A stretch of DNA of 64,000 bases, from NCBI GenBank assembly GCA_000720995.1, contig JOEL01000031.1, forward strand, positions 62,001 through 126,000, given 5' to 3'. A program made the position numbers and the translations under genes. The DNA comes from Streptomyces celluloflavus. Its GTDB lineage: Bacteria; Actinomycetota; Actinomycetes; Streptomycetales; Streptomycetaceae. Within the stretch, counting starts at the first letter, position 1; the number at the start of each line of letters is the position of its first letter. Shown here one piece after another: positions 60,750-64,000 of the stretch. The notes beneath the pieces are model-generated. The model saw only the letters and a program-made list of their open reading frames with translations, was not told the origin of the DNA and did not search any database.

Positions 60750-63128
60750 GTGGACGCGTACGCGGGGAGAGTGCTCGCCGAGCGCTACCGCCTGCCACTG
60801 CGGCCGGCGGGCGACGACGAGTTCACCGAGACCCGGGCACTGGACACGTACAGCGGGCAGGAGATCCTGCTCCGCCAAGTGCCGCTGCCGGAGGTCGTGG
60901 AGGCGGAGTTCGTCGACGAGGCGGCGCAGGACGGTGGCCGCGGCGGCGGTCCGTGGGACGGGCCGTACGGCGGCGCGGCCCCCGCGCTCCGGGGCGGCCG
61001 TGCGCGGGGCACGGGGGTGGCCGACCGCAGCCCCCGGGATCCCGCCGTACGGCGGGCGCTGGAGGCGGCGACGGCGGCGGCCCGGCTGCCCGACCACCCC
61101 CGGCTCGACCAGGTCTTCGACGTGTTCGTGCAGGACGGCAGCCTCTGGATCGCGGGCGAACTGATCCCGGCCCGCCCGCTGTCCGCGCTGCTCGCCGGGC
61201 GGACGCTCTCCCCGCACCGCGCCGCGGAAATAGCAGCCGACGTCCTCACGGCGCTGCGCACCCTGCACGCGCACGGCTGGCTCCACCGCAATATCACCGC
61301 CCGTACGGTCCTGATCTGCGACGACGGCCGGGCCATCCTGAGCGGTCTGGCGGTGGGCGCGGCCCAGGAGGCGCTCTGCGGGTACGACCCGGTGCCGGGA
61401 GAGGCAGGGGAGACGGGGGAGGCGACGGCGATCCGGGAGCCCGGCGCGGGGACCGGCGCGTTCCTGGTAAAGGCCCCGCCGCGCGATGTCGAACTTGCCA
61501 AGTACGCTCCTGCTGAGGGCAGTTCAGCCGGATCCGGGTCCGCCGCGTACGGCCGCCCGCTCGGTGGGCTCGCCGCGGAACGGGCGCGGCAGACGCGGCT
61601 GGCCGTCATCGGGCCCGTCACCGAACGCTGGGCACCGGAGCAGGCCGGGCCGGTGCACGAGGCGGGGCCGTCGGCGCCGCAGGCAGGCCCGGCCACCGAC
61701 CTGTGGGCGGTCGGCGCGCTGCTCTTCCGCGCGGTGCGGGGCCGTGCGCCGTACCCCGAGGAGAGCGCCGCCGAACTGGCCCGGCTGGTGTGCTCGTGGC
61801 CGCCCGTCACGGCCGAGGACTGCGGTGACCTGCGGCCCGTCGTCGAATCGCTGCTGTGCCGGGACCCCGCCGGCCGCCCGGACATCGAGGAACTGCGCGG
61901 CCGGCTGCGGTCGCTGATCCGTACGGCGCCCGAGGCGGAGATCGGCACCCGGGCGGTGACGATGCCGGCGCTGGACGGGGCCGCCGCCGATCCGCGACGG
62001 CTGCCGGCCGTGCGGCGGCGCGGCGAACTCGTCCGCGAGGGACGGCGGGAGAAGGGCCGGGACCGCCGCACACCGGGCTCGCGGCCACCGTCCGCCACAC
62101 CCGTCCCCGCGTCCGGCCCCGCTTCCGGACCGGCGGCGACCGCTCCCGTGCCTCGTCCGCGACGGCTCCCCGAGCAGTCCGATGCCCCTCGCCGGCCCCG
62201 GACCGAACGGCAGCCCCGGGCGACCGGACCCGCCAAGGCCATGGTCCCGGTGAAGCCGGCCAAGCAGCCCAAGCCGGTCGGACAGGCCAAGCCGGTGAAG
62301 CCGGTGAAGGGCCCCAAGAAGGCGTCCAAGTCCGCTCGGCAGCGGGCCGCTCAGCACAACGAGCAGCAGATGATGGGCCAGGTGGGACTGGAGCGGGTGG
62401 GGGCGGCGCCGACCGGCCCGCCGGACGCGGCGAGACCCTCGCGGGCGCCGCGCGCCCGCGGGCCGCGGCACCTCGGCCGGCTGCTGCTCGCCGTGATCCT
62501 GCTCCTGGTCGTGGCGGCGATCGCCTACGCCTTCGTGTTCATGCCGAAGTCGGGTGCGGACACCGGGGACGGTCCGGCCGGCGCCGACCGTACCGGCGCG
62601 GCGCCCGCGGGCCGGGGCGATGGGCGGGACGGGGGCGCGGGCGCCGGCGCAACGCAGACCACCGCGCCCGCGGGCCTCGCCAAGGGCTTCGAGGTGCGCA
62701 AGGACCCCCAGGGCTTCCAGGTCGCGGTCCGGAAGGGCTGGGAGCGGCGCGGTGCGAACGACCGGGGACAGGTCCGGTACGTCGGCGGCGACTACGAGCT
62801 GGTGATCGTGCCCGGTCGCGACACCACCGCCCACTTCGGCACCGACCCGATGGCGTACCAGCAGGACAGGGAGGCGGAGTTGCAGCCGTACCGCGACTCC
62901 GGCTGGTCCTCGTCGTCCCGGCTGCGGCGGACGGACGTCGGGAAGACCGCGATGGCGGAGGGCACCTTCACCTGGCGCGACAGCAGCGGCCGCGAGGTGT
63001 ACGTCCGCAACCTCGCGATGATCCACGACGGCCGCTACCACCTCGTCCTCGTCATCGGCCCGAACACCGGGCGCCGCGAGGCGGACCTCCTCTACCAGCA
63101 GGCCACGGACGCATACCGGCCCGGCTGA
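60750..63128 (+). CDS. membrane pseudokinase paralogous to the upstream Ser/Thr kinase
   Basis: A 792-residue protein with a kinase-like domain in which the key residues are lost: 'LHRNITARTVLICDDG' has HRN (N181) instead of HRD, the DFG site reads 'AILSGLAVG', and the strand that should carry the ATP-binding Lys is 'EILLRQVPL'. A Lys/Pro-rich linker (KPAKQPKPVGQAKPVKPVKG) precedes a membrane helix near 576-598, and the extracellular end ('FQVAVRKGWERRGANDRGQV', 'GTFTWRDSSGREVYVRNLAM') resembles that of the kinase. GTG 60750 is perfectly placed behind GGGGAGG. It may be a ligand or scaffold partner of the kinase. Confidence 0.88.
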   Translation: MDAYAGRVLAERYRLPLRPAGDDEFTETRALDTYSGQEILLRQVPLPEVVEAEFVDEAAQDGGRGGGPWDGPYGGAAPALRGGRARGTGVADRSPRDPAVRRALEAATAAARLPDHPRLDQVFDVFVQDGSLWIAGELIPARPLSALLAGRTLSPHRAAEIAADVLTALRTLHAHGWLHRNITARTVLICDDGRAILSGLAVGAAQEALCGYDPVPGEAGETGEATAIREPGAGTGAFLVKAPPRDVELAKYAPAEGSSAGSGSAAYGRPLGGLAAERARQTRLAVIGPVTERWAPEQAGPVHEAGPSAPQAGPATDLWAVGALLFRAVRGRAPYPEESAAELARLVCSWPPVTAEDCGDLRPVVESLLCRDPAGRPDIEELRGRLRSLIRTAPEAEIGTRAVTMPALDGAAADPRRLPAVRRRGELVREGRREKGRDRRTPGSRPPSATPVPASGPASGPAATAPVPRPRRLPEQSDAPRRPRTERQPRATGPAKAMVPVKPAKQPKPVGQAKPVKPVKGPKKASKSARQRAAQHNEQQMMGQVGLERVGAAPTGPPDAARPSRAPRARGPRHLGRLLLAVILLLVVAAIAYAFVFMPKSGADTGDGPAGADRTGAAPAGRGDGRDGGAGAGATQTTAPAGLAKGFEVRKDPQGFQVAVRKGWERRGANDRGQVRYVGGDYELVIVPGRDTTAHFGTDPMAYQQDREAELQPYRDSGWSSSSRLRRTDVGKTAMAEGTFTWRDSSGREVYVRNLAMIHDGRYHLVLVIGPNTGRREADLLYQQATDAYRPG

Positions 63129-63202
63129 CGCCCGGCGGGCCGCGGGCTCCGCGGCGGAAAATGGCGGTGCGGGCGCCGACACGGCCTGTTACGGTCACCG
63201 GC

Positions 63203-63253
63203 ATGAAGCGCGCTGCCATGACGACGACGCCGGAGAGTGTCCCGGCGCGCTGA
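63203..63253 (+). CDS. 16-codon leader peptide with a Thr-codon run (thrS attenuator)
   Basis: ATG 63203 encodes MKRAAMTTTPESVPAR and stops at 63251-63253. It has three consecutive ACG Thr codons (63221-63229) within a 16-residue frame, then a terminator 16 nt beyond the stop and a broken thrS. TACGGT (63190-63195) lies 7 nt before the ATG and no ribosome site is seen, which suggests a leaderless transcript. This is the plan of classical amino-acid attenuation, with ribosome stalling at Thr codons when charged tRNA-Thr is low. Confidence 0.6.
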   Translation: MKRAAMTTTPESVPAR

Positions 63254-63269
63254 CAGATGTCTTGATCCG

Positions 63270-63298
63270 AAGCCCCGGGGCGAGTGCCCCGGGGCTTT
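63270..63298 (+). terminator. attenuator terminator upstream of thrS relic
   Basis: AAGCCCCGGGGC (63270-63281) pairs perfectly with GCCCCGGGGCTT (63286-63297) around GAGT and is followed by TTT. It follows the Thr leader peptide and precedes the thrS relic by about 70 nt. Confidence 0.8.
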
Positions 63299-63365
63299 GC
63301 CATGGGGGTCCCGCCGGCCGGCGGCCGGGGAACGTCACTCGCCCGATATCCGCGAGGAGACCGCC

Positions 63366-63705
63366 ATGTACGACCACCGCAAACTCGGCCTGTTCGACAC
63401 CGACCCGCTGATCGGCGCGGGACTGCCCTAATGGCTGCCCGACGGCGCGACCGGACGGCACACCCTGGAGGAGTACATCCGCGCCGCCGAGCGGCGGGCG
63501 GGCTACCGGCACGTGTACTCGCCGGTGCTCGGCAAACGGGAGCTGTACGAGATCTCGGGGCACCGGTCGCACTACAGCGAGGATATGTTCCCCCGATGGA
63601 CCTCGGCGGCGAGCAGGTCGTCCTGCGGCCGAGCCTCTGTCCGCACCACGCGCTGATCTACCGCTCCCGCTCGCACCGTTACCGCGAACTGCCGCTGCGC
63701 ATGGC
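63366..63705 (+). pseudogene. threonyl-tRNA synthetase paralogue, broken
   Basis: ATG 63366 (GAGGAGA upstream) opens with '[20 protein letters not shown]' and, in frame or after shifts, '[20 protein letters not shown]', '[20 protein letters not shown]' and '[20 protein letters not shown]', the start of the catalytic domain of a short ThrRS that lacks the TGS and editing domains. A TAA stop at 63429 and the loss of one C in the C-run at 63590 break the frame, and the homology ends after 'LPLRMA', so over 250 residues are missing. It is a clear pseudogene. Paralogous ThrRS copies are known as resistance versions in producers of ThrRS inhibitors. Confidence 0.85.
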
Positions 63706-63707
63706 CG

Positions 63708-63887
63708 GTGGCGTCCGTTGCGTACAACGGCATCCTTCATGCGTACCAAACCACCCGGAATGCCCATGCGTGGGAGGTGGCGGCGCAACAATCGGCGTTC
63801 CGGCGACTCACGGCTGCATCCGAGGTCGGACCCGGCCCACAGGGCCGTGCTTCCTCAGGGACTGCCGAGGATGGAGACATGCGGTGA
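63708..63887 (+). CDS. small protein after thrS relic, possibly N-truncated
   Basis: GTG 63708 opens a 59-residue frame '[20 protein letters not shown]', '[20 protein letters not shown]', ending in GDMR. It reads as coding, but there is no ribosome site, and the start abuts the point where thrS homology ends, so it may be the tail of a fused or truncated gene. Its stop overlaps (GTGA) the next start. Confidence 0.45.
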
Positions 63888-64000
63888 ACCTTCGATTGAT
63901 CGCCCAATTCGCCCAAGGCGGCGGGCACAAGAAGGATGAAGGCGAGGGGGACGGACACCCCGGTCAGCCGTGGACGCCGACTGACGAGCCCACTCCCGAC
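63884..64000 (+). CDS. hypothetical protein, start only (runs off the right edge)
   Basis: GTG 63884 overlaps the preceding stop and opens '[20 protein letters not shown]' and onward to the window end, with an acidic Gly/Pro-rich stretch. Too little is present to assign a family. Confidence 0.4.

Follow-up and report, generated by a model that had tools for sequence, protein, structure and literature searches.

Introduction

The closest described relative of the locus analysed here is thrL of Streptomyces lividans TK24, which precedes the threonyl-tRNA synthetase gene thrS (SLIV_19410): thrL is a leaderless leader peptide gene with Thr codons (MKRVRPFLETTPGFVPAR), followed by one hairpin that carries no U-rich run, and its authors call the termination at thrL unclear (PMC8079986; this and the other papers are cited from the available parts of their texts). 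This transcriptome paper is the one directly relevant account that we have found in the literature, and the available part of it does not deal with the segment that we refer to as “segment E”, with the covariation of that segment, with the spread of the element over genera or with its mobility.

Other actinobacterial leaders share parts of this arrangement. The trpS and leuS attenuators of Streptomyces also combine a leader peptide that contains cognate codons with a downstream tRNA synthetase gene and ribosome stalling (PMC1262725, PMC8079986), but they concern another amino acid (PMC1262725). The LEU element of actinobacterial leuA consists of a leader peptide and an RNA that possibly forms a pseudoknot, or an alternative structure with the Shine-Dalgarno box; in that element, it is the run of leucine codons that forms the pairing with the Shine-Dalgarno box (PMC1262725), whereas in thrL the covarying partner is segment E, located past the hairpin. 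The translational T-box of actinobacterial ileS is comparable in that the charging of a tRNA controls a synthetase through a hairpin that sequesters the Shine-Dalgarno sequence (PMC1262725), but the thrL locus gives no T-box match. The available text of PMC1262725 reports no conserved structures upstream of threonine operons, and the name “thrS” is absent from it; our literature search found no papers on orphan attenuators. As a separate observation, a sigma-E binding site of the S. coelicolor threonyl-tRNA synthetase SCO3778 has been seen only in ethanol-stressed cells (PMC10771440, available part), while the available main text of PMC7157823 does not mention SCO3778.

Here, we have analysed a thrL-like locus in a 64,000-nucleotide stretch of Streptomyces celluloflavus DNA (contig JOEL01000031.1), which we refer to as “the window”. 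Our main reading, to which we assign a probability of roughly 80%, is that the locus represents the regulatory portion of a unit widespread among actinomycetes, composed of the probably leaderless thrL, a hairpin and a spare synthetase gene that we call thrS2; that the enzyme has recently been destroyed in this genome; and that in relatives with an intact enzyme the front end would act by stalling attenuation, with segment E as a probable gate.

Anatomy of the locus

The anatomy of the locus, as well as the conservation, the base-pair covariation and the damage that are presented in the following sections, have been established by computation. The elements to which we refer throughout the text are the following:

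63190..63195, + strand: –10-like hexamer TACGGT, located 7 nt 5′ of the start codon of the leader, read from the sequence and suggesting a leaderless start
63203..63253, + strand: thrL leader peptide gene, a 16-codon frame read from the sequence from the ATG at 63203 to the TGA at 63253, MKRAAMTTTPESVPAR; published homologue, thrL of S. lividans (PMC8079986, available part)
63221..63229, + strand: run of threonine codons ACG-ACG-ACG, the proposed sensor
63228..63233, + strand: segment A (CGCCGG), able by its sequence to pair with CCGGCG near the end of the leader
63238..63245, + strand: segment B (TGTCCCGG), the proposed antiterminator strand by fold prediction, with its partner CCGGGGCG in the 5′ arm of the hairpin
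63268..63299, + strand: hairpin C:D, CGAAGCCCCGGGGC-GAGT-GCCCCGGGGCTTTG, a perfect 14-bp stem with the loop GAGT, terminator-like without a T-run (sequence and terminator scan), beginning 14 bases past the stop codon of the leader
63307..63333, + strand: 27-base insertion between the hairpin and segment E, missing in ten aligned relatives, its exact placing being ambiguous
63336..63344, + strand: segment E (CACTCGCCC), complementary to the loop and the upper 5′ arm of the hairpin, and partly to the Shine-Dalgarno region (covariation counts)
63352..63359, + strand: segment F, the Shine-Dalgarno region of thrS2 (GCGAGGAG), from the sequence and the E:F counts
63366..63707, + strand: thrS2 relic, damaged and with approximately 70% lost at its 3′ end, from the alignment to intact relatives
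63884..64000, + strand: 51-codon frame that runs on to 64039, directly 5′ of a PIMT-like methyltransferase gene, from the sequence and related loci

The Thr-codon leader with ACG-ACG-ACG that an earlier note had read from this DNA is present, and the downstream thrS paralogue, which the same note had called broken, does carry a stop codon and a frameshift, in addition to the missing portion. As in the published thrL (PMC8079986), a short open reading frame with Thr codons lies directly 5′ of a thrS gene, which in this case is a relic; judged by its sequence, the locus is one more copy of the thrL-thrS unit described in S. lividans, as far as the available part of that account describes it. It differs from S. 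lividans thrL in the dead enzyme and in the 27-base insertion past the hairpin; a leader identical to that of S. lividans is present at two of the loci that we have collected (L050 and L054).

The 27-base insertion is found once in this genome by a repeat search, which rules it out as a genomic repeat. The leader core also has one match only in this genome, so the housekeeping thrS, an open frame of 669 aa located on another contig, has no such leader, and an assignment of the leader to the housekeeping gene is rejected. A T-box or another Rfam RNA is likewise rejected, since no curated model matches the region 62900-64000, where two matches lie far below the gathering score; the match of the element to sR035 reaches 17.6 bits, compared with a gathering score of 233 (E 0.036), stems mainly from the hairpin, which is GC-rich, and is missing in the loci L050, L003 and L041.

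Conservation and spread of the thrL-thrS2 unit

Searching 295 genomes of the genus with a 51-residue portion of the relic led to a collection of 134 thrS2-type loci, one per genome. The leader core is located at 133 of these 134 loci, with a recognisable start codon in 132; in 128 of these 132 leaders, the Thr run and the codon that follows it are ACGACGACGCCG, and the thrS2 frame looks intact at 127 of the 134 loci, i.e. the same leader does stand in front of intact thrS2 genes in relatives, where the earlier note had proposed to look for it. A hexamer of the form TAnnnT ends 6 or 7 nt 5′ of the start codon in 128 of the 132 leaders, compared with 4.5% of random 22-mers from the same regions, a placing that fits leaderless transcription of thrL. 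The 33-base leader core, searched with up to 3 mismatches, occurs in 116 of the 295 genomes, among them this genome, and the control, the same core read backwards, in none of the 295, by which a chance origin of the leader is rejected.

The unit extends beyond the genus. In another family of the order, thrS2 is located behind the leader core in 9 of 9 matches, and a fixed-pattern search of named genomes returned at least 119 stretches with the core, which are no separate sample, since 23 of them match loci of the genus set without a difference over 100 bases. Among the stretches listed, 102 carry an intact-looking thrS2 behind the core, 13 a partial one (11 of these are cut by the end of the stretch) and 4 have none; three of the latter are too short to judge, and L294 resembles another relic. 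Of the 80 titled rows listed, 30 are not titled Streptomyces and name Amycolatopsis, Nocardia, Kribbella, Kitasatospora, Nonomuraea, Frankia and other actinomycetes: thrL occurs in many genera of actinomycetes, and its core is nearly invariant among them.

Damage and age of the thrS2 relic

The relic begins with the ATG at 63366, its homology to relatives stops at 63707, and it corresponds to residues 1-118 of an intact relative with a length of 408 residues; within this portion, it carries a 12-base in-frame deletion, a TAA at 63429-63431 and a frameshift near 63590. Changes that are unique to the relic amount to 4 of 198 at codon positions 1 and 2 and to 4 of 52 at position 3, while the stretch from the leader to the Shine-Dalgarno region has 2 unique changes in 103 positions, plus the 27-base insertion; in ten intact relatives, the corresponding unique changes range over 0-6, 0-9 and 0-3. 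No clear excess of coding change is seen in the relic, its counts being within the range of these ten relatives, and thus the death of thrS2 in this genome looks recent.

In a young relic, an intact leader needs no selection, as its intactness is explained by passive inheritance; the leader remnant is probably passive, and the switch in this genome is most likely a young relic itself, with its sequence intact and its product gone. The claim of the earlier note that an attenuation system has been preserved after its target died stands with respect to the dead target, but not with respect to persistence by selection, given a recent loss within the range of the relatives and two stranded leaders without a hairpin in other genomes. 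Counts of the genome-unique changes were used to gauge selection after the death of thrS2, but with so few changes and so recent a death they do not discriminate.

Mobility and stranded leaders

Nucleotide homology between this genome and six relatives covers only 63130-63707, i.e. from the promoter to the end of the relic. When the contexts of 106 loci with longer flanks were clustered, the upstream flanks of 102 loci fell into 39 clusters (the largest of 43) and the downstream flanks of 105 loci into 36 (the largest of 55), with this genome alone in its cluster on both sides; ten records of a plasmid collection, some of them chromosome-sized, also carry the thrL-thrS2 unit. By this comparison of flanking sequences, the unit is one that moves between genomes.

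Seven of the 134 thrS2 loci are not intact (the window copy, L113, L130, L131, L007, L059 and L169); L007 and L059 have single frameshifts that are possible sequencing errors and were not counted as dead, and L169 is cut by a contig end. Six other genomes have a leader at a lost, truncated or damaged copy of thrS2, with the hairpin gone in two: thrS2 is truncated in G221 (L113), has an internal deletion in G099 (L130) and is multiply damaged in G224 (L131); G197 has a leader without a full thrS2 behind it, the switch being present up to the Shine-Dalgarno region; in G178 (L163), which is perhaps a later stage of decay, the end of the leader is changed (CCGGCCGGCTGA), the hairpin is lost or truncated and no thrS2 follows; and G022, which has a leader and thrS2 elsewhere (L119, L143), carries a second copy of the leader (L164, contig G022:C149) that has lost its hairpin and has a thrS2 fragment directly behind. 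These cases indicate that leaders repeatedly outlive thrS2 and that some of them then decay.

The region beyond the relic

The 51-codon frame that starts at 63884 overlaps the PIMT-like methyltransferase gene (64036-65220, its start being located outside the window), whose best NCBIfam match is TIGR04188, with 298.9 bits, below the cut-off of 380. Of 10 related loci inspected, at least 6 have a clearly similar peptide gene directly 5′ of the methyltransferase, and peptide and methyltransferase together look, by their layout, like a RiPP-type pair; no ATP-grasp enzyme was found among the eight proteins scanned. Between the relic and the pair, a 59-codon fragment (63708-63887) overlaps with its end the start of the peptide gene; it has no family match and finds only itself and one weak match in 150 genomes, and it is possibly the rear end of a gene that was cut at the junction with the thrS2 relic. 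A scan for sigma-70 promoters up to 64000 gave 0 sites, other promoter types being outside the scan. From its part in the window (63884-64000), the peptide gene, directly 5′ of the methyltransferase, continues in L032 (5885-7221), and the peptide ends with ...PTPDGGQPDGGGDHRK.

Proposed coordination of the leader and the hairpin by ribosome stalling

The mode of action that we infer for relatives with an intact thrS2 begins with the leader. When Thr-tRNA is scarce, the leader ribosome would stall on ACG-ACG-ACG and cover segment A, which would lie within its footprint; with segment A covered, segment B would be free to pair with the 5′ arm of the hairpin before the 3′ arm exists; with B:C paired, the 14-bp hairpin would not form and the thrS2 message would be made. 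When Thr-tRNA is ample, the ribosome would reach the stop codon and cover segment B, and the hairpin would form.

In folds of a transcript that ends in the hairpin loop, B:C pairing is predicted in 130 of 130 sequences if a ribosome on the first Thr codon is simulated by masking the RNA up to it, compared with 22 of 130 without the ribosome, but it is still predicted in 106 of 130 when the 5′ arm is shuffled; the GC-richness explains much of the pairing, which alone is weak evidence, and the informative part is the contrast between masked and unmasked RNA. Segment B hardly varies among the leaders, and B:C is a predicted pairing. In the window copy, masks reaching 31, 34 or 37 bases into the leader allow B:C, more weakly at 37, and a mask of 40 bases does not; with usual ribosome footprint lengths, these masks would represent a ribosome stalled on the Thr codons, three in number, and on the proline codon. 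The arrangement of leader and hairpin fits the geometry of classical ribosome-stalling attenuation, and for relatives with an intact thrS2 the proposed attenuator reading is well supported at the level of sequence and predicted folds.

The hairpin itself lacks the U-run that the intrinsic terminator of a trp-type attenuator carries: the 8 bases past the stem contain on average 2.2 T in 131 sequences, the window copy included, and a terminator scan of 63000-64000 found 0 sites. Lacking a T-run, the hairpin is at most a putative terminator. Of the “intrinsic-looking terminator” of the earlier note, what is left is a strong stem; its “textbook attenuator for tRNA-Thr charging” retains the conserved Thr run and a predicted geometry that fits, but not the U-run, and the translation gate that is presented in the next section may matter as much.

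Segment E and the Shine-Dalgarno region

Our counts suggest a second layer of control, in which pairing of segment E with the Shine-Dalgarno region would close the translation of thrS2, while pairing of segment E with the loop and the upper 5′ arm of the hairpin (C:E) would leave the ribosome-binding site open. In the 118 sequences with four-base loops, all ten possible C:E pairs are formed in 47, nine in 59, eight in 9 and seven in 3; 9 or 10 of the ten bases are paired in 106 of the 118, a level that 0 of 500 permutations reach, and 71 of the 118 lack at least one pair. When C:E pairing is scored by energy, none of 5000 permutations reaches the observed value (n=130), and in a partly overlapping set, 99 distinct sequences of 119, 0 of 1000 do; outside Streptomyces the signal is weaker, with 18 of 5000 permutations reaching it (n=25, the usable ones of the 30 rows not titled Streptomyces, among the 80 titled rows of the 119 stretches). 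The loops AAGT, GGGT, GAAC and GATC are matched in some species by the E segments CACTTGC, CACCCGC, CGTTCGC and CGATCGC, and in others they are not.

The column-wise counts come from an alignment of 80 sequences, chosen from the 108 distinct ones that passed the length and loop filters, from 130; it leaves out 28 that were judged hard to align, with a long or divergent stretch past the hairpin, among them the window copy and several in which E pairs less well (L096, L098, L111 and L126-L128), so that its C:E and E:F counts lean towards structure. The energy set (130), the four-base-loop set (118) and the 99 distinct of 119 are free of this choice. In the 80 aligned sequences, 96.7% of the C:E cells pair, with slid controls at 64.7% or below, and 14 cells are changed on both sides, compared with 3.4 in shuffles, while the pair types show no excess (10 vs 10.5). 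For E:F, 83.3% of the cells pair, with slid controls at 64.1% or below, and there are 27 double changes vs 14.6 in shuffles; the pairs changed on both sides (6 vs 5.1, reached by 178 of 500 shuffles) and the pair types (14 vs 14.1) show no excess. All of these covariation statistics ignore kinship: related sequences are not independent and no tree stands behind the counts.

By energy, E:F pairing is reached by 0 of 5000 permutations in 124 sequences, yet it lies only 0.8 sd below that of shuffled sequence, and the pairing of the Shine-Dalgarno region is barely above that of shuffles (0.686 vs 0.647, p 0.016). When the 3′ arm is blocked in nested folds, the Shine-Dalgarno site does not open, its accessibility rising in 20 and falling in 22 of 129 sequences, and hardly any C:E is produced, so that these folds reveal no route from the state of the leader to the site; the C:E helix would need a pseudoknot, which lies outside nested folds, and a pseudoknot of hairpin and E would fit. 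On these comparisons, segment E is probably a movable lid on the ribosome-binding site of thrS2, i.e. a translation gate. Relative to the available part of the published thrL account (PMC8079986), this covarying gate is new, and the literature searched, consisting of partial texts, holds no description of one for thrL.

Alternative readings of the element

The recurrence of M[KQ]RA...TTTPExVPAR across genera could indicate that the conserved product is a small functional peptide and not the RNA. The pattern of conservation, however, makes this highly improbable: the pairing bases of the leader are nearly fixed even at third codon positions, with GTC CCG GCG CGC in nearly every leader, the inner loop codes for different residues in different leaders (S, T, N, Q, R, W, Y, P and others), and the stretch between MxRA and TTT varies in both length and sequence; fixed third positions and a variable loop residue mean that the constraint acts on RNA, and a function at the level of the peptide has been rejected. 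Within an RNA-level reading, it is a tentative but serious possibility that the hairpin is no terminator at all and that control is purely translational, with E pairing in turn with the hairpin (perhaps in an H-type pseudoknot) or with the Shine-Dalgarno site of thrS2, and with the leader ribosome deciding. The missing T-run, the lack of any site in the terminator scan, the covarying helices of E with the loop and arm and with the Shine-Dalgarno region, the doubt about termination that the S. lividans authors express (PMC8079986, available part) and the pseudoknot-or-alternative LEU element reported for leuA (PMC1262725, available part) all agree with it, but segment B is placed as in transcription attenuators, and in simple folds the Shine-Dalgarno site stays as it is when the 3′ arm is blocked. 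About as doubtful, in our estimate, is a two-layer switch in its full form, in which the Thr leader would set the 14-bp hairpin, whose loop and upper arm would form a pseudoknot with the anti-Shine-Dalgarno segment E, closing or opening the synthetase site, the whole being mobile with thrS2 and, once the enzyme is dead, leaving a working Thr-responsive promoter-switch to the next gene.

What the switch would now control in this genome is a related matter. Located on the same strand, approximately 180 bases past the relic, the peptide/methyltransferase pair may possibly have come under thrL control, and the promoter and attenuator might even be kept by selection for driving the pair and making it threonine-responsive. 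Such retention would agree with this position, with the recurrence of a similar peptide gene before the methyltransferase in the related loci, with the overlap of the 59-codon fragment with the peptide start, as if the preceding gene had lost its front, and with the 0 terminator-like sites in 63000-64000; we nevertheless consider it unlikely, as the relic is young and its leader needs no selection to be intact, the 27-base insertion lies inside the switch, and stranded leaders in two other genomes have no hairpin. Our preferred reading is still that of a recently orphaned front end of the thrL-thrS2 unit.

Segment E offers a concrete, mutable second control point, through which regulation by a hairpin that lacks a U-run could be understood, and the genomes that have repeatedly lost thrS2 but kept the leader provide natural test cases for the fate of a regulatory RNA after the death of its gene. 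The reverse case is seen at one locus (L103, in G041), where the hairpin and thrS2 are present and the leader core was not found. In another genome that also has thrS2, a more distant thrS-like gene is located (L170, contig G014:C316), approximately 56% identical to thrS2.
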